The notes beneath the pieces were generated by a model. It was not told the DNA's origin. It made no database searches and worked only from the letters and a program-made list of their open reading frames with translations. 39,607 bases of DNA from contig JAUSIQ010000028.1 of NCBI GenBank assembly GCA_030647955.1, positions 1 to 39,607 of the forward strand, written 5' to 3'. How positions within the stretch are numbered: position 1 is the stretch's first letter; each line of letters starts with the position of its first letter. Positions 10,499-26,649 of the stretch are shown piece after piece. Made by a program: the position numbers and the translations under genes. The DNA is from a bacterium (lineage in GTDB: Bacteria > Patescibacteriota > Minisyncoccia > 2-02-FULL-40-12 > IGHO2-12-FULL-4).

Positions 10499-10786
10499 TT
10501 ATTCTATTATTGCTAAGATATCTTCTTCGCGAGCGATTAAATATTCCTTGTCGTCCAATTTAATTTCGTTCGGGCCGTACTTCGTAAACAAAACGACGTC
10601 ACCCTTCTTTACCGAAAGAGGAATAAGTTTTCCATCTTCCATTTTACCCGGTCCCACCGCCACGACCTTCGCTTTTTCCGGACGTTCCTTCTGGACAGTC
10701 TCTGGCAAAAGGATACTTCCCTTTTTGCGCTCTTCGCGCAGAGCTTCTAATAAAACCTGATCGCGTAATGGCTTTATCTTAATCAT
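10499..10786 (-). CDS. groES: Co-chaperonin GroES (10 kDa)
   Basis: The lid of the GroEL chamber, 95 residues, full length. It opens [11 protein letters not shown], carries G-S-I-L-L-P-E-T in the mobile-loop region and closes with D-I-L-A-I-I-E; V-V-A-V-G-P-G and [10 protein letters not shown] are typical of the beta-barrel. First gene of the groES-groEL unit, preceded by a CIRCE-like operator and a TATAAT box. Confidence 0.97.
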
Positions 10787-10820
10787 GAAAATTTATTAAT
10801 ATTTACCTGTTATAATTGTT

Positions 10821-10855: not shown

Positions 10856-10947
10856 TAGAGCTCCATCTTAAGGCAAAGCCCCAAAGCCGTCAAGTCCTAC
10901 ATTAGGCCTACTAGCCTCAGTACTTCTTCACTCGCATTCGGTCGAAA

Positions 10948-10969
10948 CAAAAACCCCACCAAAGGGGTT
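10948..10969 (-). terminator. Intrinsic terminator of the 136-aa hypothetical gene
   Basis: AACCCC (10952-10957) / GGGGTT (10964-10969) with a 6-nt loop, then TTTTTGTTT on the minus strand. The stop codon at 10968-10970 overlaps the stem base. Confidence 0.8.
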
Positions 10970-11378
10970 AACTCAACGGCACCATTTGCCACTTGGCAGA
11001 CTTAATACCAGCTGCCTGGCCATCCATAAATTCATCGATAACGACAGCGTTCAATCCTGCCTTGGTATTTTCCTCCGCAGGAAAATTGCCATCTTTCTCT
11101 TTATTAGCTAACCGGAACTCGTCTTCCCCCGCTCCTCGAAAATATACGATCTCATCCGAGAACAGATCATGGAGATTCGCTAGAACAGCTATCTCAAAAA
11201 CAATGTGGTCGTCCGAAACCCTTATTCCTCGCGAAAGCGCCCCAACTTGTCCACTCGCGCCAAATGGATCCTGATAAAAAGCCGTGTCTTCAACTCTGAA
11301 ATTCTCACCCGGGACTTCTTGTGAACTCTTCGCCCTTAATGGAAAAGTTTCCGCTGGAAAAATCTCTTCTAATTTCAA
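10968..11378 (-). CDS. Hypothetical protein, 136 aa
   Basis: No recognised family. It has no signal peptide and no membrane segment, is acidic (many E and D) and seems to be a compact alpha/beta protein. Notable stretches are I-V-F-E-I-A-V-L-A-N-L-H-D-L-F-S and A-V-V-I-D-E-F-M-D-G-Q-A-A-G. The start is TTG at 11378 with a perfect AAGGAGG 5 nt upstream. It is monocistronic, with its own TTGACA-16-TAAAAT promoter and terminator. It marks the boundary between groESL and the accessory block. Confidence 0.75.
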   Translation of the reverse strand: MKLEEIFPAETFPLRAKSSQEVPGENFRVEDTAFYQDPFGASGQVGALSRGIRVSDDHIVFEIAVLANLHDLFSDEIVYFRGAGEDEFRLANKEKDGNFPAEENTKAGLNAVVIDEFMDGQAAGIKSAKWQMVPLS

Positions 11379-11408
11379 GGCGTCCTCCTTATTTAAGATA
11401 CTTGTTGT

Positions 11409-11436
11409 ATTTTACAAAATAAAAACTTCCTGTCAA
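11409..11436 (-). promoter_or_regulatory. Promoter of the 136-aa hypothetical gene
   Basis: On the minus strand TTGACA (11436-11431), a 16-bp spacer, TAAAAT (11414-11409), then a leader of about 25 nt containing AAGGAGG. On the plus strand a TTGACT (11455-11460) could be the -35 of the divergent receptor gene, but its -10 is poor. Confidence 0.75.
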
Positions 11437-11515
11437 TCCAGGTGAAAAACGGTGTTGACTTTGAGAGGTAAAGTGCCATCTTTAGAGAAATGGTCCTTAA
11501 CAAATAGGTGAGCAA

Positions 11516-14014
11516 ATGCGCAAAGTTTTTCTGCGTCACACGCTTTGGGGTGTCCTCCTTACTATCGGCATACTTTTCCCTCCTGTCGTTTCTGCTCAAG
11601 TGCAGGTCACGATTAGTGGAAAAATCGCCGACGAATTGGAGAATCCTATTGCGAACGCGATGATTGTACTAGAACCGGAGCAAGCCGGTTCCCGATTGGA
11701 AATTACCACCCAAGAAGATGGCCGCTTCAATATTAGCCGCGACTTGAGCATCGCCGGCGCTTATCGCCTCTCCGCTCACGCCCCCGGTTATTACGAATTA
11801 AAAAAACCGGAGCCGATTATCTTAGTGGTTGGTCTTAACATCATATCCGTTCAGCTGATCAAAGAAGAAATGATCAAGAACTCTCTAACCGTTACCGCCG
11901 ATATTTATTCTCCGGCACACCTGAAAATTGAACAACTAGAAATGTCTCAACAGTTATCTGCCAAGCAAATTGATAATGTACCGGTGGTGCGGGCGGCTAA
12001 GCTAGAAAATGCTATCGCCGCCTTACCAGGAGTGGCCAAAGATCAGACCGGACAACTCCATCTTTATGGCAGTCCCGCCGATCAAATTAATTGGCTGTTC
12101 AATGGTTTTAGTTTAAATGATCCGGCCAGTGGCAAGCTAGAGGCTAATATCGGCATCGAGAGTATCGGAGGAATAAACGCTTTTGCCAGCCGCTACTCTG
12201 TAGAGTACGGGCCAGGCAGTGGCGGAACAATCTCCCTAGAAACCAAATCGCCGACCAATAAACATGCTTATCATTTTACTGATGCCGTGCCGGGAATCGA
12301 ATTTAACAACGGCTTGAAGTTTAATAGCTGGGGACCACAACTTAATTTCTCCGGGCCAATTAAAAAAGATCGTGCCTGGTACTTTCTCGGTTTGAACACT
12401 GAATATCGAAAAAGTTTTATTCGGGAACTTCCGGAAACTGAAAACGAATTCAGCTATTGGAATAGTAGCGGCGTCAGCCGCTTCCAATTAAACTTGAGCC
12501 CGCGCCACACTCTCCATGCCGGCCTACTCTATAATTACTTTGATGCTCCACAATTCGGCTTAAACCCTTTCGCCCCCCTGGAAACCACCGCCCATCGTCG
12601 CTCCCGACGAACCTTCCTTTACGCCAAAGATCAGTTCTTTCTTTCGCCAAAAACGATGTTTGAAATTGGCTACGGATTTTACCGCTCCGGTCATCGCGAA
12701 GAACCCCGCGGCCAAAAGCCCTATCAGCTGTTTGGACCATATCAAAAAGGCAATTACCCTTTTGATCGCCGCCAAGACAGTGATCGCCACGAACTGCTTA
12801 TCAATGCCCTCCTCACTCCCTGGTCTTTTTACGGAACGCATCAGTGGAAAGTGGGAGGAAATTTTCAGTATCTAAGATATGACCAGGATATTATGCGCAG
12901 TAGTATCGAATACTTTCGCGTCGATGGTACCAAATCTTTCGCGATGAACTACGGCGGCAACGGCCAATTAAGCAAAGCCAACTTGGAGAGCGCTCTATAT
13001 TTCCAAGATCGTTGGACCATTCCGGGCCAACCCTGGCTGATGATCGAAGGCGGTTTGCGCGTCGACTACAATCGTCTTTTGGGCCAACTACCGATTACCC
13101 CTCGCTTCAGTCTTGCCGCCCTGCCGCCTTGGCTAAAAACAAAAACTAAGTTCTCTGCCGGCTTCGGCCTGATTCCCGAGAAAATTAATCTAGCTCTCTT
13201 TACTCGACCGCTGGATCAATTTGTTACTTTTACTCGCTTCTCTCCAGACGGACGCGCCCAGCAAACTAGTCTGCGCTTCCTACCCTTTACTCCCCAGGCC
13301 TTGAAAATGTCGACTATCACCAACACCAGCTTCGGAGTGGAACAGGGCTTTCCTTACAAAATATTTTTGCAGTTCAATTATCTACGCAAAAGAGGGCAAC
13401 ATGGTTATACTTTCTTCCAAGTTCCTTCCCTCCGCCTCAATAGTGATCTACTTTATCGCTTGCAGAGTTCTAAGTCTGAGTCCTTTAACTTTATGGAAGT
13501 GGCGATTAGTAAACAATTTCTTAACAAGTACGACTGGTTTGCCAGTTACGCTTGGTCTAAGGCAATTTCTAACGCCGCCCTCGACATTAACGCTGAAGAT
13601 GCCATTGTCCATCGAAAAACGGCCGGACGTTTGGCCTGGGACACTCCTCATCGATTAACTTCTTGGGGGATATTCCCTCTCGGACAAAAAGAACATCATC
13701 AGTTTTCTTATTTTCTAGAATGGCGCGATGGCTTCCCCTACTTCGCCTACAACGACCAAGGAGAGCAGGTTGGCAACTACAACTTTGACCGCCTACCAAG
13801 ACAGTTCAATCTCAATATTCGCTACGCTTGGAAATTCCGCTTTTGGCGCTATGGATTAAGATTACAACTCGGCTTCGACAATATCGCCAATCGCGCTAAT
13901 TACAATTTTGTTAATCAAAATATTTCTTCTTCCGCCTTTGGAGCTTTGAGTGGCAGTCAGCCGCGCCGCTTCGTTGTCGGTTTACGGTTCTTAAACAAAG
14001 ATCAGATAAAATGA
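11516..14014 (+). CDS. TonB-dependent-receptor-like outer membrane protein, 832 aa
   Basis: A signal peptide (1-27, cleavage after V-V-S-A before Q) precedes a carboxypeptidase-regulatory-like beta-sandwich (about 30-115; T-I-S-G-K-I-A-D and G-R-F-N-I). A TonB-box-like L-T-V-T-A-D follows near 125. The plug (about 140-245) includes L-E-N-A-I-A-A-L-P-G-V, L-F-N-G-F-S-L-N-D-P and Y-G-P-G-S-G-G-T-I-S-L-E-T-K-S. The rest is a barrel rich in alternating aromatic strands, whose last strand R-F-V-V-G-L-R-F resembles an OMP beta-signal, with seven extra residues after it. This architecture is common in Acidobacteriota and Bacteroidota receptors taking up glycans or peptides. No tonB or exbBD is in the window. 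Start ATG has AGGTGA upstream. Very unexpected if the host is Patescibacteria. Confidence 0.85.
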   Translation: MRKVFLRHTLWGVLLTIGILFPPVVSAQVQVTISGKIADELENPIANAMIVLEPEQAGSRLEITTQEDGRFNISRDLSIAGAYRLSAHAPGYYELKKPEPIILVVGLNIISVQLIKEEMIKNSLTVTADIYSPAHLKIEQLEMSQQLSAKQIDNVPVVRAAKLENAIAALPGVAKDQTGQLHLYGSPADQINWLFNGFSLNDPASGKLEANIGIESIGGINAFASRYSVEYGPGSGGTISLETKSPTNKHAYHFTDAVPGIEFNNGLKFNSWGPQLNFSGPIKKDRAWYFLGLNTEYRKSFIRELPETENEFSYWNSSGVSRFQLNLSPRHTLHAGLLYNYFDAPQFGLNPFAPLETTAHRRSRRTFLYAKDQFFLSPKTMFEIGYGFYRSGHREEPRGQKPYQLFGPYQKGNYPFDRRQDSDRHELLINALLTPWSFYGTHQWKVGGNFQYLRYDQDIMRSSIEYFRVDGTKSFAMNYGGNGQLSKANLESALYFQDRWTIPGQPWLMIEGGLRVDYNRLLGQLPITPRFSLAALPPWLKTKTKFSAGFGLIPEKINLALFTRPLDQFVTFTRFSPDGRAQQTSLRFLPFTPQALKMSTITNTSFGVEQGFPYKIFLQFNYLRKRGQHGYTFFQVPSLRLNSDLLYRLQSSKSESFNFMEVAISKQFLNKYDWFASYAWSKAISNAALDINAEDAIVHRKTAGRLAWDTPHRLTSWGIFPLGQKEHHQFSYFLEWRDGFPYFAYNDQGEQVGNYNFDRLPRQFNLNIRYAWKFRFWRYGLRLQLGFDNIANRANYNFVNQNISSSAFGALSGSQPRRFVVGLRFLNKDQIK

Positions 14015-14046
14015 TCCCGCCCTTATGTACAAGAGCGGGATTTTAT
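14014..14046 (+). terminator. Intrinsic terminator of the receptor gene
   Basis: ATCCCGC (14014-14020) / GCGGGAT (14035-14041) with a 14-nt loop, then TTTTATAATTT. It overlaps the TGA stop codon. Confidence 0.8.
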
Positions 14047-14051
14047 AATTT

Positions 14052-14074
14052 AAAAACCGAGGTTGGCTCGGTTT
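14052..14074 (-). terminator. Intrinsic terminator of the glycosidase gene
   Basis: AAACCGAG (14054-14061) / CTCGGTTT (14067-14074), 5-nt loop, followed on the minus strand by TTTAAATT. It overlaps the glycosidase stop codon and faces the receptor terminator. Confidence 0.8.
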
Positions 14075-15572
14075 AAAATAATTGTGCGAAAGAAATTCTT
14101 ATCCAGGATTTCGTGGAATTACCCGTGCGATCATAGGCAACCGCTACCAGTAAACCACCCCCGGAACGAGTTAAAAACTTCTCTCTTTTTAAAATAGTTT
14201 GGTAGGGAGCAGCGTACAGGACATCGAGCTTTTCCCTATCGAGCCAGAACTCCACCCTCTCTACTTTGTCATTATCGCTCGCCCCGGCGTAGATAATCTG
14301 ATCTGCCAACAAGCGTGCACGGTTAAAGGGGTAGGTTAAAACAATTTGCGGAGGAGTAACATCGGGATTCTCCACTACGGTTGGCCAGCCCAATATCTGA
14401 TTGGTATCTTTGAGCTTGGTAAGAATAAAATCAGTCATCCCCGGTTCCAAAGTATAGAGCTGTTCGTAGGCTACATAGTAGGGAAAGTTGGGATAATACT
14501 GCCAACCCCATAGCGCGCTAAAAGGTATCCTTAGTGAAACAATTTTTCGCAACACGCTTTGCGTAAAGCGACCCTCTCCATCTTGAGGAATACTAGGATC
14601 ATTATCTCCAAACTCTCCTAAAAATAAGAGCTTGCCCGCAGCATCGGCTATCGCTTTCACTATATCAAGTATATCGGCATTGTCGGACCCTCGGATAGAA
14701 AAGCGCTCATTGTCCCGACTAGTGCAATCCGCGTTCTCGCAGAAATTATAAGGATGGTAGCTGATGATGTCGAAGGCTTTATGCATCTCCAAAAGATTTT
14801 TGATAAATTCGCCCATCGAATCTTCTGTCCAGTCCGGTCCGTTCTCAGACCATTCCGGCTGTCGCTGAAGGTGCACCGCGGTGCGCCGCGATCCATAAAA
14901 TCCGGAGGAGATCATCCGCGAAGGATCCAAAGAACGCAATTCTTTCGTAAACTCCAAGGTAAAATTAATTAATTCGTCCGAGGTGAAATTCTCGCCTTTT
15001 AGCTTAAAACGGCGATCAATGTCAAGCTCGGCATCCAAGTCCCACTCATTCCCCATCTCCCAGAAGAGGATGTCGTCTGAATCTCGATAACGCAAGACTA
15101 GTTCCGTCATGTATTGATTGAGTAAACTTCGAGATTTTGAGTTACGATCGGTAAGAAAGGTATGAGTGTTTTCTTTGGCCAGTAGCGGAAATTGTCTTAT
15201 CCACCAAACCACGGTCGGAATAATTTTTATATTATTCCGATGCAAATCGACGATCATCTCATCAAACTTTTCCCAATATTTTTCGGGGTTAGCTTGCCAG
15301 ATCAAAAGATCTCGATGACTATACCCCGAAGCAGCAATTCTAAAATATTTTATCCCCAGATTTTTAGCATCCACGATGGATTTCTTACCCATCGCTAAGG
15401 TCACCGCGCGCGGAACCTTCTCCCCCGAAGCCGTTCCCAAGTATTGTAGCCAGAGATCAAATTTGACCAGCCCTACCGCCGGACGCACCGGACCAATTTC
15501 ATCTTCCTGCCCATAAGACATTATCATTGTAGCCACAACCATCGCGAGAAGTAAAATACCTACTCTGCGCAT
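14073..15572 (-). CDS. Secreted clan GH-A (GH5-like) glycoside hydrolase
   Basis: A signal peptide (to about residue 21, ending M-S-Y-G before Q-E) precedes a (beta/alpha)8 glycosidase. Counted from ATG 15572, the acid/base is Glu166 in W-E-M-G-N-E-W, the nucleophile Glu310 in F-L-G-E-F-G, and His263 lies in I-S-Y-H-P-Y; these are the usual clan GH-A positions. A C-terminal Ig-like domain (about 405-499) opens with T-P-P-Q-I-V-L-T-Y-P and has D-N-D-K-V-E-R-V-E-F-W. Likely an endo-acting beta-mannanase or cellulase type enzyme, substrate unknown. An upstream in-frame GTG (15578) is the alternative start. It is last of the secreted-protein genes on this strand and lies in a convergent pair with the receptor gene. 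Confidence 0.85.
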   Translation of the reverse strand: MRRVGILLLAMVVATMIMSYGQEDEIGPVRPAVGLVKFDLWLQYLGTASGEKVPRAVTLAMGKKSIVDAKNLGIKYFRIAASGYSHRDLLIWQANPEKYWEKFDEMIVDLHRNNIKIIPTVVWWIRQFPLLAKENTHTFLTDRNSKSRSLLNQYMTELVLRYRDSDDILFWEMGNEWDLDAELDIDRRFKLKGENFTSDELINFTLEFTKELRSLDPSRMISSGFYGSRRTAVHLQRQPEWSENGPDWTEDSMGEFIKNLLEMHKAFDIISYHPYNFCENADCTSRDNERFSIRGSDNADILDIVKAIADAAGKLLFLGEFGDNDPSIPQDGEGRFTQSVLRKIVSLRIPFSALWGWQYYPNFPYYVAYEQLYTLEPGMTDFILTKLKDTNQILGWPTVVENPDVTPPQIVLTYPFNRARLLADQIIYAGASDNDKVERVEFWLDREKLDVLYAAPYQTILKREKFLTRSGGGLLVAVAYDRTGNSTKSWIRISFAQLF

Positions 15573-15589
15573 AGCCACCCCATTTAAAA

Positions 15590-15617: not shown

Positions 15618-15639
15618 ATCGTTTTCCAAGATCAAATCC

Positions 15640-16515
15640 TCACTTTTTTTCAGATTTTTCAGCTTTCTTCATGCCCGTCTTAGCACTATCAAGAAAGCGA
15701 CTAATAGTCTCAACTAAAATTACATAACTATAGGAAGCGGTGGTACGCGCTACCACTCCCACTACCACTCCATCTGGAGTGATCAGAGGACCTCCGGAAA
15801 AACCTTTTTCCACTCCTCCCTGAACGATCCCCATCGGATAAACCATCCCACTGGATAATAGATTGGTCATGGCCCGCAGTGGTCCAATTTGAATCGAGAA
15901 AAAAGCGCTGGGATTAGCAGGAAAGAAAGAGAATGCATAAAGCTTCTCCGCTAGAGGACTTTTCGATAATGTTTCCGAGGGCATCGTTGCCGGCTTAGAA
16001 CCAAACACAACCTTATCGACATTGGGAGAAACAACTTTTAACAAAACCAGGTCTGCCTCATAGCTGAATGAAGCCAGCTCCGCATCGAAAATGTTTTTTC
16101 CATCAGTAACCTGAATAGTCAGCGGAAAATCCTTGTCCGACCAAATAGCCGGATAGGCCGGTCCCAAAACATGCATACAGGTCAGCACATAACCATCCCA
16201 GCCCGGCGGCACAAAACCGACCCCCGAGAAAGTATCGTGATGCATCCCGCCCTCATCTTCGCCGTAATGAATAATCTCCACACGGATAGGTACAATTGAA
16301 TCTTTTCTGAGATTATTAACGGGATCGGGCAAATATCCATCCATGGAAAGAAAGGTGGGAATTTTATTGGCACCAGAAGGCGCGGTACTTTTCTCCGCCT
16401 CCTGCTCAAGATGTTTTGGATGCAATACTTCTTTTTCCTGAGCCTGCCCGGGCCATGCCCCAGCAAAAACGGTTATAAAAATAACAAAACCTATTCTTCC
16501 TGCATTTCCAAACAT
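15640..16515 (-). CDS. Secreted trypsin-like serine protease (S1/S1C fold), 291 aa
   Basis: I set the start at ATG 16515: it has GAGGATG just upstream and gives a proper signal peptide (cleaved near G-Q-A-Q, residue 25). The open frame extends 33 codons further without a signal-like start. The catalytic triad is His115 (T-C-M-H-V-L), Asp155 (E-A-D-L-V-L-L-K) and Ser240 (G-F-S-G-G-P-L). There is no PDZ domain and no membrane anchor, unlike DegP/DegS, and a charged K/E tail closes the protein. A protease domain this short after a 60-residue linker suggests processing of surface or extracellular proteins. Terminators on both sides make it a separate unit in the secreted gene series. Confidence 0.85.
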   Translation of the reverse strand: MFGNAGRIGFVIFITVFAGAWPGQAQEKEVLHPKHLEQEAEKSTAPSGANKIPTFLSMDGYLPDPVNNLRKDSIVPIRVEIIHYGEDEGGMHHDTFSGVGFVPPGWDGYVLTCMHVLGPAYPAIWSDKDFPLTIQVTDGKNIFDAELASFSYEADLVLLKVVSPNVDKVVFGSKPATMPSETLSKSPLAEKLYAFSFFPANPSAFFSIQIGPLRAMTNLLSSGMVYPMGIVQGGVEKGFSGGPLITPDGVVVGVVARTTASYSYVILVETISRFLDSAKTGMKKAEKSEKK

Positions 16516-16600
16516 GGCATCCTCTATTTTCAATGATCCAGCTGTTTTGAGTATAGGACTCCTCTCTTTGCTCGTCAAATGAATATTTCTTGCTGGATAA

Positions 16601-16628
16601 ATAAAAAAATACACGGTTATCCGTGTAT
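16601..16628 (-). terminator. Intrinsic terminator of the metalloprotease-lipoprotein unit
   Basis: ATACACGG (16609-16616) / CCGTGTAT (16621-16628), TTAT loop, then TTTTTTATTTAT on the minus strand, 4 nt beyond the lipoprotein stop codon. Confidence 0.9.
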
Positions 16629-16631
16629 TAA

Positions 16632-18200
16632 TTACTGCTTGGGAAGGCGGAAGTGTACATGTTGGTGACCTCCACCCTGTTCATTGTAAGCATCCACGCC
16701 ATTAGAGTTATCGACGGCTGTTTCCAGTCTCAACTCATAGCTACCATTACTATCTTTATCCCAGATGATAAATCTCTTCTCCCCTTCCGTGAAGACCACC
16801 TTGTAAGGCTTGTCCTCAATGAAGTTATTAATCCCGGGAGTAATATTGGCAAATTTTATTTCGCCATTGGCCAGTTCGATTCGAATGCGTTTTCCATTCT
16901 CTTCGACAGCCTGTAAGACATTTCTTTCGTTGAAAGGAGCTTTTAGACGAAAATACTCAATCACCGAACCCGTCCCGCTGAAAACCTTGGCCACATAATC
17001 CAGTTGCTTATTAGCAGCATCGGGATTATCAGCATCAACCTCTTGCTTGGGCTTAGCAAAACCCACCTTCACCGTATAGTTATCCTTTTGGGAGCTCTTA
17101 TACCCAAAGGGGACCTTCCAACCGGCCGGAGTAGAGGCCTTTTCCCATAAATCCACCGGCGCTCCCACTTGAGCAATTTCCACCTTGATATCCGGCTTGA
17201 CCGGAGGAACTTTACGACGCTCCTTCGGCTTATCGGGGAACAGGACATCGATAGTGGCCTCGGTCATCATCATCCGCGCGGAAACAATCTTGCTCACCGC
17301 AAGGACAATTTCCGGTAAGCCAAAGCCTGATTCTTTTTCCCGATCCTGATCAGCCACGACCACGGAGCGATCCTCAAAAATAAAAATTTTCAGAGCCGGT
17401 TTGCTTTCTTCCTTAAAAGAAAGTTGATTACCAGGATCGACCACCAGTCGCGTGCCCTCGATATAATCCACTTCATTGTCCTTGGGCTTCTGGCCACTGT
17501 GAACAATTTTGTAGCTTCTAAAAAGCAGGCCGCGCTGAACCGGTCGCCAATTAAATTTATTCTGATCATTCGGCGAGTTCGGATCTGGTTCTTTCAAACC
17601 ATAGGTCTGCTTAGCAAACCAGACAAACTCTTCCACTGGCTGCAAGTTTTTATTTTTCCTCGCCTCATTCACTAGGTCACTTTCAAAACGATACATATCT
17701 CGAAAGTCTCCAGAAGCATAAAGCTTCTTGAGGTCAACCATCGCTAAGGGACTGCCTTTCCCGGAAGAATTACGCAACCCCATATGAGTCTGAAATTGAT
17801 TTTCAAGCTCTAATACCCTCAAACGATCGTAGGTTGTTTTCAACAGATCTTCTTTGCGCTCGTATTCTGCCCTAAGACCAAAGTAAGAGATGAAGCTCGC
17901 CCACGCCTCGTTCTTATAATCCAGGATCACGCGAAAATCTTCTAGTCTCTCACCAAGCCATTGGCGAATTTGTTCCCAGCTCAATTTTCGAAAGGAAACA
18001 TCGAAACTATTTTTATTCTCGTCCCATTTTAGAGCAATGAATTTAAAAGAATCGGCATACGCCGCCATACGCTCTTCTTCGTTATTTCCTCTCGCTTCTC
18101 GTAGCTTGGTAAATTCGGTTCGATAGCGTTTCACGCAACCGCTATTCGATCCCAAAATTACTAAAGCTAACAATGGCCAGAGCCATGTGCGTCGCATCAC
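16632..18200 (-). CDS. Putative lipoprotein of unknown function, 522 aa
   Basis: The N-terminus has a short hydrophobic stretch ending S-N-S-G-C-V (Cys22), a tolerable but not ideal lipobox. Residues 25-200 are helical and charged, residues 200-350 mixed alpha/beta, and the C-terminal 150 residues look beta-rich, with A-N-I-T-P-G-I-N-N-F and D-K-D-S-N-G-S-Y-E-L-R-L. The last resembles a calcium-binding D-x-D-x-N/D-G loop, and the chain ends G-G-G-H-Q-H-V-H-F-R. I do not recognise the family. Its ATG overlaps the TGA of the HELIH protein gene by 4 nt, so the two products are likely made together and may interact. A possible ligand-binding partner or inhibitor of the protease is speculation. 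Confidence 0.7.
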   Translation of the reverse strand: MMRRTWLWPLLALVILGSNSGCVKRYRTEFTKLREARGNNEEERMAAYADSFKFIALKWDENKNSFDVSFRKLSWEQIRQWLGERLEDFRVILDYKNEAWASFISYFGLRAEYERKEDLLKTTYDRLRVLELENQFQTHMGLRNSSGKGSPLAMVDLKKLYASGDFRDMYRFESDLVNEARKNKNLQPVEEFVWFAKQTYGLKEPDPNSPNDQNKFNWRPVQRGLLFRSYKIVHSGQKPKDNEVDYIEGTRLVVDPGNQLSFKEESKPALKIFIFEDRSVVVADQDREKESGFGLPEIVLAVSKIVSARMMMTEATIDVLFPDKPKERRKVPPVKPDIKVEIAQVGAPVDLWEKASTPAGWKVPFGYKSSQKDNYTVKVGFAKPKQEVDADNPDAANKQLDYVAKVFSGTGSVIEYFRLKAPFNERNVLQAVEENGKRIRIELANGEIKFANITPGINNFIEDKPYKVVFTEGEKRFIIWDKDSNGSYELRLETAVDNSNGVDAYNEQGGGHQHVHFRLPKQ

Positions 18201-19654
18201 CGTCCTCCTTTTCCAGACATCTTACTTTCCAAAACCTGCCAAATTAATCCTTTGACCTGTTCAGGACTCATCTTCATGACATCTTCCGGCTTGAGCTTCA
18301 GCTCTTTTAAGAAGCGACTGACTTCAGTCTCGTTGTCAATATTTACTCCTAATAAGAGAGCTAGCTGCCTCAGCATCGGCTGTGCCATCGCTCCTTCTTT
18401 TCCTTCTTCCATCTTCGTACCACTAAGCTCCCACGCTTTTTCGGCATCCACTCTGATATTGTCCTCGTTGGCCTTAAGCCAACGCGCGGTATTCTCTCGT
18501 CCTCCTAAAATGGTGGGCTCGTACATTTTGCGCATCATAATCCAAAGGACGGCGCGATTATCAGCAAGCTTGTGATGCATCGCTGACCACAATACGATCT
18601 TGCCGTAAAATTCTCCAAGCGCCTTGGGAAAAAATTTCACATACTCCGCCTTGATCTGATTAAGCATCAGCGCGTAGTGATCAAACTTTTTCTCATCGAT
18701 AAAAAGATTACCGGCGGCATCGAACTGAATGACCTCTTTGCGCACACGCTTATAGTTATATCCAAAGAAAACCCAGGCCAGCTCGCGCAGATCCGGCACG
18801 TAGCTATGAAACTGCAAGTTAATATGATCATCCGAAGACAGCATCGAAGGAATCGAAGCGAAGAACTCTGTATCAAATCCCTCTGAGAAAGGAATAGATT
18901 GTAGAACCTTATTGCTATGGATTAATTCATGCTTGGTAACCATCGGAGCTTTTAAAAGATAGTCCGCTACCTGGCCAATAGGAGTAAGATACACCACTCC
19001 GGTATCGAGCCACGTAAAACCGATCGCTCCGGGAATAGCTGGGCCATAACCCAGATGCACTTCTCGCGGAATAAAATCTTTCTTCTCCATCTGCTTGGGT
19101 AGCCAGTAAAGTTCGCTTAACGTAAAGCGCGGATTTTCTGGAGCGGGCTTATTAAGAACCTTATCAAGCTCCGCGGCTGTAAGACCAATACCACTCTCTA
19201 CTAAACCTTCGATCGCCCACTTGCGCAGATCGCCGTAGAACGCAAAGTTCGCGTCCACAGACTCTCGTAGAGAACGCATCGTCCAGTCCACCACCACCTG
19301 TAGTTCGGCAGGCGTAATAATTTCCTGTCCGAGAAAATTAGTAAAACGAATACGGCCATCGGGCAGGCGTACATAATGATCGAGCACTAGAACAATTTTC
19401 TGCCCATCAATTACACCATTCACTTTAATAGCGTTAACCGGAATGAGCCGAGCATGATCATCGCTATTCGTTTCGTAAGCCTTCTGCATCGCCGCCAAAT
19501 ATCGAAAATATTCCGCCCACTGCTGACTTGGTTTGTTAGCCTGAATCACTCCTGGAGGGAAATAATGCGGCAGAGTCTGACTCTTCGCTGTAACTGTCAT
19601 GAAGAAAGAAAACAAAACAGAAAAAACAAAAATGCGAGACCGTCGAGTATCCAT
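18197..19654 (-). CDS. Secreted putative zinc metallopeptidase (HELIH), 485 aa
   Basis: A signal peptide (to about residue 25, T-A-K-S before Q-T-L) is followed by a long helical protein. V-T-K-H-E-L-I-H (239-246) contains a perfect HExxH zinc-peptidase motif: His242, Glu243, His246. E-G-F-D-T-E (258-263), 12-17 residues on, offers a candidate third ligand in a shorter than usual gluzincin-type spacing. The rest matches no family I know, so protease activity is inferred from the motif and location only. ATG at 19654 is preceded by GAGAGGAAG. First gene of a two-gene unit with the putative lipoprotein (4-nt overlap). A short C-terminal helical region (430-480) is rich in K and E. Confidence 0.72.
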   Translation of the reverse strand: MDTRRSRIFVFSVLFSFFMTVTAKSQTLPHYFPPGVIQANKPSQQWAEYFRYLAAMQKAYETNSDDHARLIPVNAIKVNGVIDGQKIVLVLDHYVRLPDGRIRFTNFLGQEIITPAELQVVVDWTMRSLRESVDANFAFYGDLRKWAIEGLVESGIGLTAAELDKVLNKPAPENPRFTLSELYWLPKQMEKKDFIPREVHLGYGPAIPGAIGFTWLDTGVVYLTPIGQVADYLLKAPMVTKHELIHSNKVLQSIPFSEGFDTEFFASIPSMLSSDDHINLQFHSYVPDLRELAWVFFGYNYKRVRKEVIQFDAAGNLFIDEKKFDHYALMLNQIKAEYVKFFPKALGEFYGKIVLWSAMHHKLADNRAVLWIMMRKMYEPTILGGRENTARWLKANEDNIRVDAEKAWELSGTKMEEGKEGAMAQPMLRQLALLLGVNIDNETEVSRFLKELKLKPEDVMKMSPEQVKGLIWQVLESKMSGKGGR

Positions 19655-19699: not shown

Positions 19700-20686
19700 T
19701 TAATTGAGACCCGAGTCAAGTTCTAAATATGAGCCAAATTCCTTCCAAGAATCAATGGTTTTATTATATTTTTGTAAAATCCTTCCCTCGGCGGAATTAG
19801 GATGAAATTCAAGCTGCTGATCGCTCATCGTGATACGTCCCGGCAAATTCAACTGCACCCTGCTGCGCTGCAAAGCCCTGGCCCAATTTTCCAGCTTCCC
19901 CCTAAACATAAAATTCAAAACAACCTCGGCTAGACTAGCAATTTTTTGTAAAAATTTATTCTCCTGAATATGCCGATATTGGTAGCCATCCAAGTGCTCC
20001 CAGTTCTGTAAATAATTTTCAATCCAAGTATTTTCTCGCCAAAAATCATCCAGCACTTCTTTGCGCCGTACATAGACCGGAATCAAATGAGCGTAAAGTT
20101 GCGCCGTATACAAACTGACGCAGGGAATACGTAACGAACGGGTCGTAATAAAATGATTGGGACAAATTTTATCCGGAGCAATAATTTGTTCTTTGCGCCG
20201 TCTTACGCCCATTATTCCAAAAAGCACATAGACGAATAAGCGCGCCGTCCAAATCCGTCCAGACTTGGCGACAATCAACATATCCAAATCGCTATTTTCC
20301 GTCATGTGCCCCATCGCCAAAGATCCACTGGCCAATACCAGTTCAATAAAAGGCAAAGACTGGATCCAAAATAAATACCGCCGTGCTTTTTTCCATTTTT
20401 CTTCCGCCAGCTTAATCCTTTCAATCCTTTCTAAATAAATATGTTTTTTTCCGGGAAGAAAATAAAAACCCAGAAACTCCTCCACCAGTCCTTTGAGTTT
20501 GAGATTCTGTAACACTTCTTCAATTTGCCCATACCCCAGCTCCTCCTTTTTCCGAGTAAAAATTTTTTTATCAACAAACTTCTCCGGATTAATTAAAAAA
20601 CGCGTAACCTCTCTGACGGTTAATGGAAAATCTAACACATCAAAATAGGCCAAGGTCGCCAAAATAGATTTTTCTAAAGCTGCCAT
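19700..20686 (-). CDS. Nucleotidyltransferase-domain protein (Pol beta-like), 328 aa
   Basis: The central A-S-G-S-L-A-M-G-H-M-T-E-N-S-D-L-D-M-L-I-V matches the GS-x(9-10)-DxD metal site of Pol-beta-type nucleotidyltransferases (about residues 120-140). An N-terminal region (1-75) looks like a winged helix (T-V-R-E-V-T-R-F-L and L-K-L-K-G-L-V-E-E). The C-terminal half is helical with a hydrophobic stretch. I have the impression that proteins of this layout are frequent in Patescibacteria; the substrate is unknown. It lies between the two halves of the accessory block, 45 nt upstream of the metallopeptidase gene and downstream of the MxaL-like gene and its terminator, and supports a single genome of origin for the whole block. 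Confidence 0.75.
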   Translation of the reverse strand: MAALEKSILATLAYFDVLDFPLTVREVTRFLINPEKFVDKKIFTRKKEELGYGQIEEVLQNLKLKGLVEEFLGFYFLPGKKHIYLERIERIKLAEEKWKKARRYLFWIQSLPFIELVLASGSLAMGHMTENSDLDMLIVAKSGRIWTARLFVYVLFGIMGVRRRKEQIIAPDKICPNHFITTRSLRIPCVSLYTAQLYAHLIPVYVRRKEVLDDFWRENTWIENYLQNWEHLDGYQYRHIQENKFLQKIASLAEVVLNFMFRGKLENWARALQRSRVQLNLPGRITMSDQQLEFHPNSAEGRILQKYNKTIDSWKEFGSYLELDSGLN

Positions 20687-20736: not shown

Positions 20737-21825
20737 CTAGAACAAAAGAATACTAAGTAAAAAAAGGATGGCGCAGGCCGCTAGAACATACCAATAAAGC
20801 TCCTGTTTTTCTCGAGTTATAACGCTCACTCCTTTTTGCCTCTCATCTTCTAAAATAGTGTGCAAGAATGTGCTCACCTCCGCGGAGGAAGTGCGTAGAC
20901 CGAAATAACGCGCCCCTGTCACTACACTAATAGATTTTAGATTTTCCTCCTGCAATTTCGTAAAGATCTTATCGACCTTCTCCACCTCTTTTGAAAGTCC
21001 CGTAGGATGATCTCCGAAATCTACAGAAGTTTTTTCTTTATAGACATGTTTTACAGAGGTGCCTTCGAGAGTTCCCACACCAATGGTGTAGACCGGCCAA
21101 GCCTCTTGTCTGAAATTGCGCAGTATACCATCAAACTCGGCTATTTTCAGATCTCGCTCTTTTTTGGCCTCCTCATCCTTGGCTGGCTTTAAAAAATTAT
21201 CATCCCCGTCCGAAAAAAGAATGACGACGACCTGCCGCTTTTTGTACGCCGGACTGTCCATATCAAAGCTAACTTGGTTTTTAAGAAAGGCGAAGGCGTA
21301 GCTTAAGGCGAAGGAGAGATTAGTATCCCAAGCATCCGCTCCTTCCGGATCAATATCCAGGTTATTCAGTCTAAATAAGATATTGCCATGGTCATGAGAG
21401 AAAAAAGAAACCATCCCCACACCTTTATCAAACCGCATCATCGCCACCCGGTCGGCAGATTTTATCTCCGCAGTCACTAGGCGCCGAATCTCTTTTTTTA
21501 CTCGCCCAAAACGCGCGCCCCAAATATCATCCGCTAACATCGAAAACGAACTGTCCGCCATGATAAGAATATCTAAGCTTTTATCTTGAGGCAGATCGAC
21601 CACCTTTTGCGGTCGTGCTAACGCCACAATTAATCCCGCGGAGATGATAATAAAAAGGGCCAAAACTTTGCTCTGGCCCCAGAAAGAAAATCTGGAATAG
21701 AGAGTTTTGGCCGGACGAGACCGTACTTTTGAAATCAGTTGTACCATCCACCATCCTGCTAAGCCTAAACAGATCCATAACCACGGCAGATAGCCAGGTT
21801 TAACCCACTCGATGTTGTCTAGCAT
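20737..21825 (-). CDS. VWA-domain membrane protein, MxaL/BatB-like
   Basis: Two N-terminal TM helices (about 13-31 and 54-70) precede a von Willebrand A domain with a full MIDAS start D91-S-S93-F-S95 and L-F-S-D-G-D-D. One C-terminal TM helix (about 340-360) anchors the end. This is the BatA/BatB and MxaC/MxaL architecture, in which the VWA domain sits outside the cytoplasmic membrane and works with a MoxR ATPase. I use ATG 21825 (preceded by GAGAGG) rather than the upstream ORF start at 21858; it lies 1 nt after the stop of the TM-plus-tail gene. Sixth and last gene of the cluster. A VWA insert (about 150-260) has many charged residues. Confidence 0.85.
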   Translation of the reverse strand: MLDNIEWVKPGYLPWLWICLGLAGWWMVQLISKVRSRPAKTLYSRFSFWGQSKVLALFIIISAGLIVALARPQKVVDLPQDKSLDILIMADSSFSMLADDIWGARFGRVKKEIRRLVTAEIKSADRVAMMRFDKGVGMVSFFSHDHGNILFRLNNLDIDPEGADAWDTNLSFALSYAFAFLKNQVSFDMDSPAYKKRQVVVILFSDGDDNFLKPAKDEEAKKERDLKIAEFDGILRNFRQEAWPVYTIGVGTLEGTSVKHVYKEKTSVDFGDHPTGLSKEVEKVDKIFTKLQEENLKSISVVTGARYFGLRTSSAEVSTFLHTILEDERQKGVSVITREKQELYWYVLAACAILFLLSILLF

Positions 21826-21826
21826 C

Positions 21827-22510
21827 TCATCCTCTCTTATTCGATCCGCCCGAACCACTTTGGCGCCCGATGTCTTTAATATTGTAAGGCTTCTTTCCGC
21901 CGCTGGGCTTTGGGCCTTTCACTTTACCTTCTTGACCCTCTTTGCCTTCTTGCGGATTTTGCCCTTGCGCCTTGGCTTTTTGCTTTGCCACCACTTTCTG
22001 TCTCGTCTGCTTATCCGCCATTATTTCGTAATTGAATTTGCTATCAAAATGATCGGGATCAAGAATAATAGACTTAAAATATTCTTCCTTGGACTGATCA
22101 AGAATATTTTCACTTCCGCTAGAGGACAACTCCTCCGCTACTACTTTTCTAAAGTAGGCATTGCCTCGCGCAAAATGGGCCCAACTCGCTTTAACTCCTT
22201 TAGTCCGTTTGAGGACGGCTTCGTATTCGCCGTTCTCGTAGAGCCACGTCACTTCATTCTCAAGAATAAAGCGGAAAATAAGCAGTCGATCCAAAACACG
22301 CTCTGCTTTTATCTGTCGGCCCCAGTCGTAAAGTTCGTAGAGGTGCTTGCTATGCTTAGCAACTTTTTCCTTGTCGCCAGACTCAATCGCCTGACTCAAT
22401 TTTTCATTACAAAAGTAAAGATATCCTAAAGAGAATAGCGGTCCACAAATTGCCAAAGCAATCAGTAGAGCCGCTCCCAGTTCGAGCAAAACTCTCCTGA
22501 GCCTGGCCAT
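21827..22510 (-). CDS. Membrane-anchored helical protein with basic tail, MxaK/BatC-like
   Basis: One TM helix (about 10-32) precedes a helical region (35-165) with TPR-like character, for example Y-E-A-V-L-K and A-H-F-A-R-G-N-A-Y-F. It ends in a 60-residue tail of K, G, Q, P and S (K-A-K-A-Q-G-Q-N-P and G-S-G-G-S-N-K-R-G). BatC proteins are TPR-containing partners of BatA/BatB, and MxaK is a similarly small anchored protein. Sequence identity alone does not name it; the position between two VWA genes does. It has a terminator-like hairpin upstream, so its expression may differ from the four genes before it. Confidence 0.7.
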   Translation of the reverse strand: MARLRRVLLELGAALLIALAICGPLFSLGYLYFCNEKLSQAIESGDKEKVAKHSKHLYELYDWGRQIKAERVLDRLLIFRFILENEVTWLYENGEYEAVLKRTKGVKASWAHFARGNAYFRKVVAEELSSSGSENILDQSKEEYFKSIILDPDHFDSKFNYEIMADKQTRQKVVAKQKAKAQGQNPQEGKEGQEGKVKGPKPSGGKKPYNIKDIGRQSGSGGSNKRG

Positions 22511-22555
22511 CTTTTTTCCGCCTTTAGTTATAAAAGTTCTCTAGCTTAACTGGTA

Positions 22556-22590
22556 ACAAAAAAAGCGCCAAGGGTCAATCCTAGGCGCTT
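22556..22590 (-). terminator. Terminator-like hairpin inside the MoxR-VWA operon
   Basis: AAGCGCC (22563-22569) / GGCGCTT (22584-22590), 14-nt loop, then TTTTTTTGTT on the minus strand, 3 nt after the stop codon of the first VWA gene. It splits the cluster into four upstream and two downstream genes; a -10-like TATAAC follows but no clear -35. Confidence 0.8.
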
Positions 22591-22592
22591 CA

Positions 22593-23573
22593 TCATGGAA
22601 AGTCTCTAAACCAGGGAGATAGAGCAATAAGTAAAGCTCCTACGAGTACAAAGAAAGCTGCTCGAGCCCAAGGCTCAAAAAGAGGAATGTATCCCGAAAG
22701 CTTTTGAGTCAAAACTTTAGTAGTTTCAATTTGATCAATTTTATCCACTGCCTCATCAATGGCCGCCGCACTCTCTCCGGCGAAATATATTCCGCCGGCT
22801 TTTTTAACCGTGTCTACCATAATCAATCCATTGGGAGAATTTGCTACACCTATCCCAATAAGATAAATGGTAATTCCTTCTCGCTGAGCTTCCTTAATCG
22901 CTTTAGTCGGATCCGTATTGCTATCCGCATCGGTAAAAATTACCAACACCCGTTTTTTTACATCCTTATCTCCATGACGGATAAAATAATTTTTAGCCGC
23001 ATTCACTGCCACATCGATCTGGGTCCCACTTTCTCCGTACTGGTCAAATTTAATGCTATCCAAGAGAAAGCGATAATAATTAAAGTCCTTCGTAAAGCCG
23101 GAAATGATGTAGGTGTTATCAGAAAAGATTAACAGCGCATACTGATCCAAAGACTTTGTTCGTCGCAATATTAATTTTTTAATTGAATCGGTGGCCACTT
23201 TAAATGGCACCGGAGTGCCGCCCATCATACTGCCCGAGAAATCGAGCATCATCACCAATTGGCGCGTTTCTTCGTGATCATTTATTTCTCTTTGCTCTAA
23301 GACCGGATCAGCTAAGGCCACCCCAAACAATAAAGCCGCGGCCAGAAATAAAAACTTGGGAAGATGGAACCAATATCCTCTCCGCCGTAGCCTGTTTAAA
23401 TTTGAAAGGGAGAGATCGGAAAATACCCAGTACTGCCGGTACTCATTCCGACCTCTCCGATTTCGTCGCCATCGCAGTATTAAGCGCAAGGCGATAAAGA
23501 CCAGCGCTACGGCAATAATAATCTGTACAAAAGGCCAATGTAAAAACCTTACTTCTTCACCGAAACTGAACAT
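22593..23573 (-). CDS. VWA-domain membrane protein, MxaC/BatA-like, 326 aa
   Basis: TM helices at about 15-33 and 70-89 and a C-terminal TM at 303-321 frame a von Willebrand A domain. The MIDAS begins D111-F-S113-G-S115-M, with V-I-F-T-D-A-D later, so metal binding is probably intact. I set the start at ATG 23573 because TAGGAG lies 5 nt before it; the frame reaches back to 23621 across the preceding stop. It follows the MxaA/BatD-like gene by 8 nt. The MIDAS-bearing domain in Bat/Mxa systems is thought to bind a client or cofactor-insertion intermediate. Confidence 0.88.
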   Translation of the reverse strand: MFSFGEEVRFLHWPFVQIIIAVALVFIALRLILRWRRNRRGRNEYRQYWVFSDLSLSNLNRLRRRGYWFHLPKFLFLAAALLFGVALADPVLEQREINDHEETRQLVMMLDFSGSMMGGTPVPFKVATDSIKKLILRRTKSLDQYALLIFSDNTYIISGFTKDFNYYRFLLDSIKFDQYGESGTQIDVAVNAAKNYFIRHGDKDVKKRVLVIFTDADSNTDPTKAIKEAQREGITIYLIGIGVANSPNGLIMVDTVKKAGGIYFAGESAAAIDEAVDKIDQIETTKVLTQKLSGYIPLFEPWARAAFFVLVGALLIALSPWFRDFP

Positions 23574-23581
23574 ACGCGCTC

Positions 23582-24613
23582 CTATCTTAACCGGCGCAAG
23601 AACAGCTTCGTTCGGCCCCATAAACTAAAGTTGCCAAGAAGGACTAGAACCGCTTTCGATTCCGTGTCGAAATTCGGGATAACCTCGTCTCGCCACTGAT
23701 GATACTGCCATCTTTCCCAAACCTTAAGCAGCTCTTTCCCAGCCTCTCCATACCATTGAGAACTAGCCTGCTCAAAGGCCCGAGCAGCTTCGTCTGCCGT
23801 TTTAGATTCATGGGTTCGCAAAAGTGCCAGACAGAAAAAATCTCTCAAAACACTAATCGCTAAACCTTGTTTCTGCAAAGTCACATCCACTGCGCATCCA
23901 CAGGCGAGCTGATTAGAAATTTCTTTAAGTCTTTTTCTGGTTTGTCTGGCCGCTCTAAATAAACTAGGGAAAACTTCTCGAGCTACTCCGGCTATTACCG
24001 GTCCTCGCCACGATTTTACCAATACCGTAGTGCGCCAACCGACAAAGCTCATCAGTAAAAATACCGAGAGTCCCATCAGGATCAATCCCCGATACGGAAA
24101 AGTATGCAGCGCTTGTCGATCTCGAATATCGTCCACATCTTTATACAGAGTGCTCCGCCATTCCACCGGAACTTTTTCCAGCTTATATTCCTTCTGCGGG
24201 AGCTCCTCTACTTTTTTACCCGGCTCCAAAACCACGTAAGGAATAACCAACGCCTCGATCGTCATGCTCACTTTACGAATTTCAAAGTTTCTAATTCGAT
24301 AATGAGCTTTTAAAACTTTGAGCTCTCCGTGCACGGTGTCGCGCAATTCTCCGGACACCACCTCAAAAGGGGTGAGTAAGATCCGTTTCGGATCAAGTCC
24401 ATTGCGAACAACATGAACGTTGTCGGGATAATAGATATTGAGATAAAAATCTAATTCGTCTCCCACAAAGAAAGCCGTTCGGCCTATCTGGGCCTCGGCC
24501 CATAAAGGATGGGCCTCAGCCGGATTTGCGGCCACAGTTGGCGGCAACACCTGGGCCATCACTGGCACCCAGAAGGCACTTAGCATAATCAACCACACAA
24601 ATTTCTTTCTCAT
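23582..24613 (-). CDS. Signal-peptide membrane protein, MxaA/BatD-like, 343 aa
   Basis: The signal peptide (1-20, cleavage after P-V-M-A before Q) is followed by an extracytoplasmic beta-rich domain (about 25-165; G-R-T-A-F-F-V-G-D-E-L-D-F-Y-L-N-I-Y-Y), one TM helix (about 178-196) and a cytoplasmic helical domain (200-343). The layout of exported beta domain, TM and C-terminal cytoplasmic part is that of BatD and MxaA. The ATG overlaps the TGA of the DUF58 gene by 4 nt. Its sequence is too divergent for a symbol. Confidence 0.75.
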   Translation of the reverse strand: MRKKFVWLIMLSAFWVPVMAQVLPPTVAANPAEAHPLWAEAQIGRTAFFVGDELDFYLNIYYPDNVHVVRNGLDPKRILLTPFEVVSGELRDTVHGELKVLKAHYRIRNFEIRKVSMTIEALVIPYVVLEPGKKVEELPQKEYKLEKVPVEWRSTLYKDVDDIRDRQALHTFPYRGLILMGLSVFLLMSFVGWRTTVLVKSWRGPVIAGVAREVFPSLFRAARQTRKRLKEISNQLACGCAVDVTLQKQGLAISVLRDFFCLALLRTHESKTADEAARAFEQASSQWYGEAGKELLKVWERWQYHQWRDEVIPNFDTESKAVLVLLGNFSLWGRTKLFLRRLR

Positions 24614-25524
24614 CTCAGTATTCTCCTTTCTAGAAATTTTTCTACTAACCTATCAAGATATTTCTTTTCCGTATCCCAGGGAAGATCAATCCAATCTCCG
24701 CCCAAACCGATCACGTCCTTTTGCAAGGCTTCTTTTTGTTTATTAAGCTCTGCCATCACTACCACTAAATCTTTCTGGCTCAGACGAACCGTTTGACCCG
24801 TCTCCACGTCTCGTATTTTTATAAATCCATAGCGCCGTTTAAAATTTTCTTCTTCCGGAACCACTGGACGAAAAGCGATCAAGTCGTGACGCAAAGCTAA
24901 GCTTTTTAAAACCGCTCTGTCCACTGCATGCGCTCCGCCCAAAAAATCGGAAACAATCGGTAAGAAACACGGCCGTCGCGACTGCTGTTCGATTTGCCGC
25001 AAAGCGGCATTAAGATCAGTAGTCTGCGGCTGAAATTTTTTACTCCCTTGCTCTAGTTTTTCCCATAATTGTTCCAGTAGATAATAAACCTGATTTTTTC
25101 CTCCGCGGGGTTTGAGGGACAAACAAACCTCCTGATCAAACCCCACACAGCCCACGGCATCCCCTAAGTGACTGGAGGTGAACGCGATCGCTCCAAGTAA
25201 TTCCATCAGAAAATAACTTTTCAGCGGAGAACTTCCGAATAAAATTGAACGGCTTAAATCCGCCACCATCACGGTGAGCACTTCTTTCGGCTCGACAAAC
25301 TCTTTAACCAAAAGTGGGGCGTCATCAGTGGTTCTGGCGGCACTCGCTCGCCAGTCAATCTGATGCAGATCATCTCCCGGTTCATACTCTCGAATATTGA
25401 TAAAATCCAAGCCACTGCCTGTTTTACGACTGCGATGCTCACCAATCCTTAATCCTTTGGAAAGACGATAACTCACTAAACCATCGATCTCTTGCAGCCT
25501 ATCCTGCAACTCTTTGGGTAACAT
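24610..25524 (-). CDS. DUF58 domain protein, MxaS-like, 304 aa
   Basis: The DUF58 core is visible: Y-E-P-G-D-D-L-H-Q-I-D-W-R-A-S-A-A-R-T (about 47-65), then V-M-V-A-D-L-S-R-S-I-L-F, which resembles the VWA-like D-x-S-x-S strand end. R-x-Y and G-S-G-L-D-F-I-N-I-R-E precede it. There is no TM segment, so it is likely cytoplasmic or peripheral. DUF58 proteins sit next to MoxR ATPases in Bat, Mxa and other VWA systems and are regarded as adaptors. Its start overlaps the moxR stop by one base (TAATG), indicating tight coupling. Confidence 0.92.
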   Translation of the reverse strand: MLPKELQDRLQEIDGLVSYRLSKGLRIGEHRSRKTGSGLDFINIREYEPGDDLHQIDWRASAARTTDDAPLLVKEFVEPKEVLTVMVADLSRSILFGSSPLKSYFLMELLGAIAFTSSHLGDAVGCVGFDQEVCLSLKPRGGKNQVYYLLEQLWEKLEQGSKKFQPQTTDLNAALRQIEQQSRRPCFLPIVSDFLGGAHAVDRAVLKSLALRHDLIAFRPVVPEEENFKRRYGFIKIRDVETGQTVRLSQKDLVVVMAELNKQKEALQKDVIGLGGDWIDLPWDTEKKYLDRLVEKFLERRILR

Positions 25525-26558
25525 TAGGGCACCGGCGTTTTGTCTAAAATCAATTCCAAGATTTCATCCGGAGTGATTTTTTGCGCCTGCGCTTGGGGTT
25601 TTAAAACTAACTTATGCGGCAGCACTAAGCGCGCCACGTACTTCACGTCATCAGGCAGAACCGTATCGCCTCCCCGCAGAAAAGCCCGTGTGACCGCGGC
25701 CGCCTTCATCTGAAATTCGTTGCGTGGAGAAATACCCACCTCGATATACTGAAGCACTTCTTTTAGTTGAGAGCGCTCCGGACGAGAGGCATCAAAAATT
25801 TCCACCACATATTTATCCACCAAACTTCCTTTTTTCACATAGTCCGTGATAAAGCGCGCTACTTCCATAATCATCGCCGGATTCGCCACTCTCTTAATCA
25901 CCTTGCCCCGCAAACTTTCGGCACTGATTTTCATTTCCGAATCTCGATCGGGATAATTAATTCTAATTCTCATAAAGAAGCGGTCTAATTCCGCTTCCGT
26001 CAGAGGATACGTTCCTTCGCTTTCAATCGGGTTAGCCGTAGCCAGGACCCAAAAAAATCTCTCGGTCGTCGCCGCTACTTCCATCAACGGATAAACCGCC
26101 TCTCCAATCGTCACCGCTCGCTCTTCCATCGGCTGCAAAATAGCGGATTTAGTTTTGGGAATAATCCGGTTCAGTTCGTCAATCAAAACGACATGGCCAA
26201 AAATGGGCCCGGGCATCATCTTAAATTCTCGGGTCTTTTGATCAAAGACCAAGCTGCCCGTAACGGCACTCGGCAGCAGATCCGGAACGCCCTGAATACG
26301 CTGATACTTGGCATCCATCGCCGCCGCCAGTGCGCTGGCCAACTCGGTCTTACCGGTACCCGGCACACTCATCAATAAAATATGTCCCTGCCCATAGCAC
26401 TTTTCTCTGCCGTTCGCCGCAGAGTACGGCGCACGAGCAAATAGTCCAATCATGCAGTCGTCAATCACCTGGTCTAAACCAAAAAGAAACTGTCGCGGCT
26501 GTTCCGCCACCGCTTTGATAATTTCCCGAGCCTTCTCAAGATTCATTTCTTCTCTCAT
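25524..26558 (-). CDS. MoxR-family AAA+ ATPase, MxaR-like, 344 aa
   Basis: A AAA+ module of the MoxR clade: Walker A V-P-G-T-G-K-T (65-71), Walker B V-V-L-I-D-E-L-N-R (123-131), sensor 1 A-T-A-N-P, and the P-L-T-E-A-E-L-D-R-F motif typical of MoxR. The C-terminal lid follows. MoxR ATPases act as metal- or cofactor-insertion chaperones together with VWA proteins. It is first gene of the six-gene cluster. I chose ATG 26558, which has GGAG 6 nt upstream, over the ATG at 26570; a third in-frame ATG is 26546. Divergent from uvrC. Confidence 0.93.
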   Translation of the reverse strand: MREEMNLEKAREIIKAVAEQPRQFLFGLDQVIDDCMIGLFARAPYSAANGREKCYGQGHILLMSVPGTGKTELASALAAAMDAKYQRIQGVPDLLPSAVTGSLVFDQKTREFKMMPGPIFGHVVLIDELNRIIPKTKSAILQPMEERAVTIGEAVYPLMEVAATTERFFWVLATANPIESEGTYPLTEAELDRFFMRIRINYPDRDSEMKISAESLRGKVIKRVANPAMIMEVARFITDYVKKGSLVDKYVVEIFDASRPERSQLKEVLQYIEVGISPRNEFQMKAAAVTRAFLRGGDTVLPDDVKYVARLVLPHKLVLKPQAQAQKITPDEILELILDKTPVP

Positions 26559-26609
26559 CCCAATCTCCATTCACTTGTAAAAGTTCATTTTCTAGGCTTA
26601 AAGTACCCT

Positions 26610-26637: not shown

Positions 26638-26649
26638 AATAGCTAATTG

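Follow-up and report, generated by a model that had tools for sequence, protein, structure and literature searches.

The presence of TonB-dependent transporters (TBDTs) is taken as a sign that a cell has an outer membrane and TonB-ExbBD. Insertion of the TBDT barrel depends on BAM in the diderms that have been studied, and Ton and BAM machinery is expected in the Bryobacterales, a group of acidobacteria that encode TBDTs. Patescibacteria have been treated as monoderm in work on T4SS (PMC12102498), and a survey of protein families in the CPR found TonB-ExbB-ExbD and PilQ to be missing, which was read as support for there being no outer membrane (PMC6744442). A search of openly licensed papers found no report of a TBDT in Patescibacteria; this is not proof of absence.

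A gene for a receptor of this type is found in an order of Paceibacteria. The window, that is, the whole stretch of 39,607 nucleotides that was analysed, comes from a metagenome-assembled genome (MAG) of 942,948 bases in 42 contigs, which is 97.8% complete with an estimated contamination of 2.85%. Its features are listed in Table 1.

Table 1. Positions and strands of the receptor gene, its predicted domains and the neighbouring genes, with the basis of each assignment
Feature	Position in window	Strand	Basis
groES, left native neighbour	10499..10786	-	homologues 64-89% identical, beside groEL in relatives
TBDT-fold receptor gene (P0001)	11516..14014	+	ORF, AlphaFold2, Foldseek, PF25183 partial match
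Predicted Sec signal peptide, residues 1-28	11516..11599	+	SPase I-like site VSA/Q, sequence read by eye
CarboxypepD_reg-like beta sandwich, residues 29-115	11600..11860	+	PF13620 and model strands
TonB-box-like LTVTA, residues 124-128	11885..11899	+	sequence and alignment
Plug, ~residues 141-268	11936..12319	+	model and Foldseek alignment; boundaries approximate
Beta-barrel, ~22 strands, residues 269-832	12320..14011	+	model, Foldseek, PF25183 partial match
Secreted GH5-like glycoside hydrolase with bacterial Ig domain	14073..15578	-	PF00150, PF17957
Secreted trypsin-like protease	15640..16614	-	PF13365
522-aa exported protein, possible lipoprotein	16632..18200	-	sequence alone; no Pfam match
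485-aa exported protein with HELIH, possible zinc metallopeptidase	18197..19654	-	motif; no Pfam match
Nucleotidyltransferase-like gene, right native neighbour	19700..20686	-	adjoins groES in receptor-less relatives
MoxR/DUF58/VWA (Bat-like) cluster	20737..26570	-	native to the order
uvrC	26647..27969	+	homologue in 44 of the order's 45 genomes, identity 46-62%

The open reading frame of the receptor encodes 832 amino acids from an ATG start and has no internal stops. Read by eye, the putative signal peptide is MRKVFLRHTLWGVLLTIGILFPPVVSA/Q. A Pfam scan of the single protein yields one match, PF13620 (CarboxypepD_reg), at residues 32-97 (E 4.5e-10, 40.2 bits), and no plug or barrel family for the ~700 residues that follow the linker; an NCBIfam scan of the receptor gives no match. 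In the whole-genome scan PF25183, an outer-membrane barrel family with a cut-off of 30 bits, matches part of the barrel at 36.5 bits. At the position of LTVTA the aligned relatives carry a degenerate S-[IV]-x-V-type stretch.

A sequence search of the PDB with the receptor returned one meaningless match, and fold comparison alone is informative. The AlphaFold2 model, built with 13 related sequences and of moderate confidence (mean pLDDT 76, pTM 0.73), displays a sandwich joined by a disordered linker to a plug and ~22 long strands. Every one of the 50 PDB matches listed by Foldseek is a TBDT; the best is YddB (E 6e-27), and others are FusA, PfeA, FepA, FhuA, BtuB and SusC. The window receptor is predicted to have the TBDT fold, with the plug inside a barrel of ~22 strands. 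The preliminary description of this DNA had read the gene as a TBDT with signal peptide, sandwich, LTVTA, plug and barrel, and that reading is upheld by the intact frame, by PF13620 and by the agreement of AlphaFold2 with Foldseek. The barrel end that it had placed at RFVVGLRF is also present as the last strand, and is followed by a short tail, LNKDQIK. Identity with the homologue L012 is 34% in the barrel, 31% in the plug and 33% in the N-terminal domain, and between L012 and L014 the values are 46, 44 and 32%. The barrel and plug are thus conserved like the N-terminal domain, which argues for a working barrel.

The window-type receptor is present in three of the 45 genomes of the order, and the same three are the carriers among 384 sampled genomes of the class. 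The other two carriers, G024 and G016 (the latter PCXQ01000005.1, Candidatus Yanofskybacteria CG10, a relative in the same order), are independent genomes of a family other than that of the window. Their full-length homologues show 34-35% identity over the aligned part. The receptor locus is common to G016 and G024, with at least four homologous neighbours on each side (36-69% identity), and carriers span two genera at this shared locus. As 42 of the 45 genomes are without a window-type receptor, it is dispensable in the order.

A second TBDT, of acidobacterial type and 1092 amino acids long, is encoded elsewhere in the window genome, on contig C1, and matches PF25183 at 476 bits; a sample of 380 genomes from the phylum contained this family once. 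By similarity its neighbours are read as dnaE, thrS, miaA, gatB, gyrB, nusG, rplK, pyrH, gatA and gatC. In G001, a genome of the window's family, two TBDT gene fragments lie at contig ends (L078:2-2320 on contig C19 and L079:1-1041 on contig C32), on contigs that carry pnp, rpsO and infB. The fragments are non-identical, with 86% nucleotide identity over 264 bases, and the ending of both contigs inside these copies suggests that the receptor family has several copies, at which the assembly broke. A tblastn search of plasmids with the window receptor gave weak matches, mostly in Acidobacteriota, Bacteroidota and Pseudoalteromonas.

Outside Paceibacteria, a scan of GTDB species genomes turned up full-length relatives at three loci only, all of them in Bryobacterales/Bryobacteraceae (Acidobacteriota), with 28-31% identity. 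In a maximum-likelihood tree, which is small and has seven rows of unusual composition, the three Paceibacteria sequences group together (97/95) as the sister of a Bryobacterales clade (99/97), the joint node having 100/100. The sister relation alone is no proof of direction; we infer transfer from Acidobacteriota to Paceibacteria because the receptor is rare in Paceibacteria and TBDTs are abundant in Acidobacteriota. Third-position GC content (GC3) of the receptor is close to that of its own genome in the window (0.49 vs 0.48) and in the other carriers (0.43 vs 0.42 and 0.35 vs 0.29), and is 0.71-0.81 in the Bryobacterales copies. Open frames of 832-900 codons have been kept among receptors that share 32-43% identity. 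The two G001 copies give dN 0.055, dS 0.70 and dN/dS ~0.08 over 88 codons, a figure that comes from two fragments of a TBDT type other than the window receptor. That the frames stayed open while the sequences diverged, together with a host-like composition and this low ratio, points to old genes kept by selection. These are very probably authentic Paceibacteria TBDTs of at least two families, kept by selection and derived by old transfer or transfers from, or via a common source with, Bryobacterales-like Acidobacteriota. Acquisition of the gene followed by a different use had been suggested as one possibility; the Bryobacterales relatives in the tree bear out the acquisition, and the matter of a different use passes to the readings weighed below.

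The chromosomal setting was compared in stretches around uvrC from 15 relatives. A conserved gene order runs through murD-like, M48, LemA, pyrG, groEL, groES and the nucleotidyltransferase-like gene, and continues, with the MoxR/DUF58/VWA cluster where present, into uvrC, holin-like, SBP5, PGI, rnj, trpS and PMM. Exceptions are single genomes in which some members are absent or relocated, and names of flanking genes that have no Pfam match come from inspection of the sequence. The site is empty in six relatives (G002, G004, G006, G010, G020 and G036), where groES adjoins the nucleotidyltransferase gene. G003, which belongs to the window genome's family, has a GH5 homologue (40%) next to groES without an intervening receptor gene, and shares with the window the head-to-head arrangement of moxR and uvrC. 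To judge from these sequences, the receptor gene is an opposite-strand insertion into a native stretch of chromosome, with groES on one side and GH5 on the other, and the edges that had come under suspicion are ordinary.

Several doubts voiced in the preliminary description are answered by this comparison. A chimeric contig is contradicted by the gene order conserved to the left and right of the putative foreign block and by the second TBDT elsewhere in the genome. A wrong lineage call is refuted too, as the relatives include a named Ca. Yanofskybacteria genome and the flanks have the gene order of the order, and the genome is not placed in a diderm phylum, the placement that had been set beforehand as refuting. 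Nor is the 10.9-26.7 kb block a foreign insert as a whole, since its MoxR/DUF58/VWA cluster and nucleotidyltransferase gene are native to the order.

The interval between groES and uvrC (window 10787-26646; L060-L063, L066 and L071 in relatives) is a hotspot in the order. Its variable content comprises MoxR/DUF58/VWA-TPR clusters, S1C proteases, S55-like peptidases and GH5, with the nucleotidyltransferase gene conserved. On the minus strand a 136-aa open reading frame (window 10968-11378) separates groES from the receptor gene. It has no homologue in the relatives examined and could be either a genuine small gene or a chance frame.

The genes that follow the receptor encode putative secreted proteins. 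GH5-like and GH42-like hydrolases are found near the receptor in G024, and a 69% homologue of the GH42-like gene is near the receptor in G016. The presence of glycoside-hydrolase-like genes near the receptor in the window, G024 and G016 suggests glycan substrates. GH5 as an obligate partner of the receptor is weakened, since the GH5 of G003 sits at the same site without a receptor; at the window site GH5 would appear either to predate the receptor or to be independent of it. A SusC/D locus was considered and rejected, a SusD-like gene not being recognised among the neighbours scanned. The 485-aa HELIH protein could possibly be a new secreted metallopeptidase. Its PorZ match, at 14.8 bits, falls far short of the cut-off of 260, and the idea of a type IX secretion neighbour was dropped.

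Outer-membrane and Ton machinery was searched for with the profiles POTRA, Omp85, ExbD, TonB_C and LptD, ExbD being taken as marker for ExbBD. POTRA (BamA) has no match in the 45 genomes of the order, with 8 of 14 controls matched, and the same is true of ExbD (PF02472), with 5 of 14 controls matched. LptD is likewise at 0 of 45, a weak result since the profile matched only two of the 14 controls. Omp85 is absent from the three receptor carriers and present in four other genomes of the order; TonB_C (PF03544) is absent from the carriers and present in seven of the 45 genomes, none of them a TBDT carrier. Both of these profiles also matched controls. The preliminary description had found no tonB/exbBD in view, which with the PF03544 and PF02472 profiles is true of both the window and the 97.8% complete genome. 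It had also proposed a search of the genome for bamA, tonB, exbBD and lptD, and in the carriers none is matched by POTRA/Omp85, TonB_C, ExbD or LptD. The three independent carriers have 94-98% completeness, so that gaps in the assemblies are very unlikely to have removed BamA and ExbD from all three. The classical steps of assembly in the outer membrane and of energising by Ton very probably lie beyond the cell's own known machinery.

The TonB_C proteins of the seven genomes (L053, L054 and L057 in G003, G017 and G027, and those of G005, G011, G020 and G022) consist of a membrane segment, a proline- or glycine-rich linker and then the domain, in genomes without ExbD or a detected TBDT. Their occurrence contradicts the published absence of TonB in CPR. 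The Omp85-like proteins L049, L050, L051 and L052 (G019, G030, G031 and G041) are large and exported and have an RGY-type motif; from sequence, and from Pfam in two of the four, they join a PD40 propeller to an Omp85-like barrel but lack POTRA. Each adjoins a small lipoprotein-like gene resembling GWxTD proteins.

Given the BAM dependence of TBDTs, a cell without BAM would have to rely on the BAM of a second cell or on a different route. Growth of Patescibacteria as epibionts of other bacteria has been reported (PMC12102498), and it makes the membrane of a diderm host a physically available site. The most likely use, though a tentative one, is that the receptor, presumably exported by Sec, is made for a diderm partner, such as an acidobacterium, and for the outer membrane of that cell. 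The partner's BAM would insert it and the partner's Ton system would drive it, and the benefit would be uptake of glycan fragments freed by the secreted hydrolases, or a docking site. The whole chain, an authentic, acquired and selected receptor together with a host-directed mechanism, is plausible if still somewhat doubtful. A far-reaching form of it, in which an epibiont-made receptor of acidobacterial type, implanted by host BAM and Ton-driven, remodels the host's uptake or docking surface, is unlikely.

The receptor might instead work in the cell's own envelope, in an atypical outer layer or membrane, with non-Omp85 insertion and no canonical ExbBD; an unusual envelope was among the possibilities named in the preliminary description. 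Diderm-style genes do recur in the order, with TonB_C in 7 of 45 genomes, Omp85-like proteins with PD40 in 4 of 45 and TBDTs in the three carriers and G001, and the receptor retains its TonB-box-like stretch; but POTRA, ExbD and LptD are at 0 of 45, genomes with TonB_C and genomes with TBDTs do not overlap, and TonB-ExbBD and PilQ are reported missing in CPR (PMC6744442), which leaves this account somewhat unlikely. A non-transport role at the surface or outside the cell, as an adhesin or in glycan or phage binding, with a barrel that is never inserted in a membrane, would fit the failure to find insertion machinery, the N-terminal sandwich and the secreted hydrolases around the gene. Conservation of barrel and plug to the same degree as the N-terminal domain is, however, unexpected for an idle barrel, and such a role is rather unlikely.

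Acidobacterial genes could also have been taken up by a naturally competent epibiont as a passive gene load, functionless so far. The patchy distribution (3 of 45) and the several unrelated TBDT types within one family would agree with this, yet the frames of 832-900 codons remain open at 32-43% identity, composition is that of the own genome, the locus is common to two genera and dN/dS is ~0.08; a passive load is therefore highly improbable. An artefact, either a chimeric contig or a mis-binned acidobacterial fragment, is scarcely credible even for a MAG of 42 contigs with 2.85% estimated contamination. It is opposed by order-level synteny on both sides, the independent carriers, the second TBDT on a housekeeping contig and a GC3 of 0.49 as against 0.71-0.81 in Bryobacterales; the independent carriers and GC3 composition rule out the mis-binned fragment in particular.

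Members of one order of Paceibacteria carry native TBDTs that are old and apparently under selection, and no BamA or ExbD homologue was found there. Either the envelope of the order differs from what has been assumed, or these proteins are made for someone else's membrane. The acidobacterial affinity suggests a candidate partner for uncultured Paceibacteria cells, and the question of whose membrane receives Paceibacteria TBDTs is directly testable.

Among known systems, SusC of Bacteroidota polysaccharide loci resembles the window receptor in having an N-terminal sandwich joined to a TBDT and an adjoining glycoside hydrolase; the window receptor differs in belonging to another subfamily, with no SusD-like gene recognised in the scanned neighbours and no inner machinery. 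The solved TBDTs YddB, FusA, PfeA, FepA and FhuA have a plug and a barrel of the same fold (Foldseek E 6e-27 to 5e-21), but they are 10-14% identical to the receptor, mostly have no N-terminal sandwich and come from cells with a TonB-ExbBD and a BAM of their own. To the Oar-like/PF25183 receptors of Acidobacteriota, which the C1 receptor matches at 476 bits, the window receptor has only partial similarity; it is shorter and forms a separate family. The TBDTs of Bryobacterales (L013, L015 and L016) have the same succession of CarboxypepD_reg, box, plug and barrel, with 28-31% full-length identity, but are encoded by diderm acidobacteria of ~60% GC. By its context the window receptor fails as a component of a same-cell Ton-dependent uptake system; it has the fold of a TBDT, and the small family in which it falls also includes Bryobacterales proteins.
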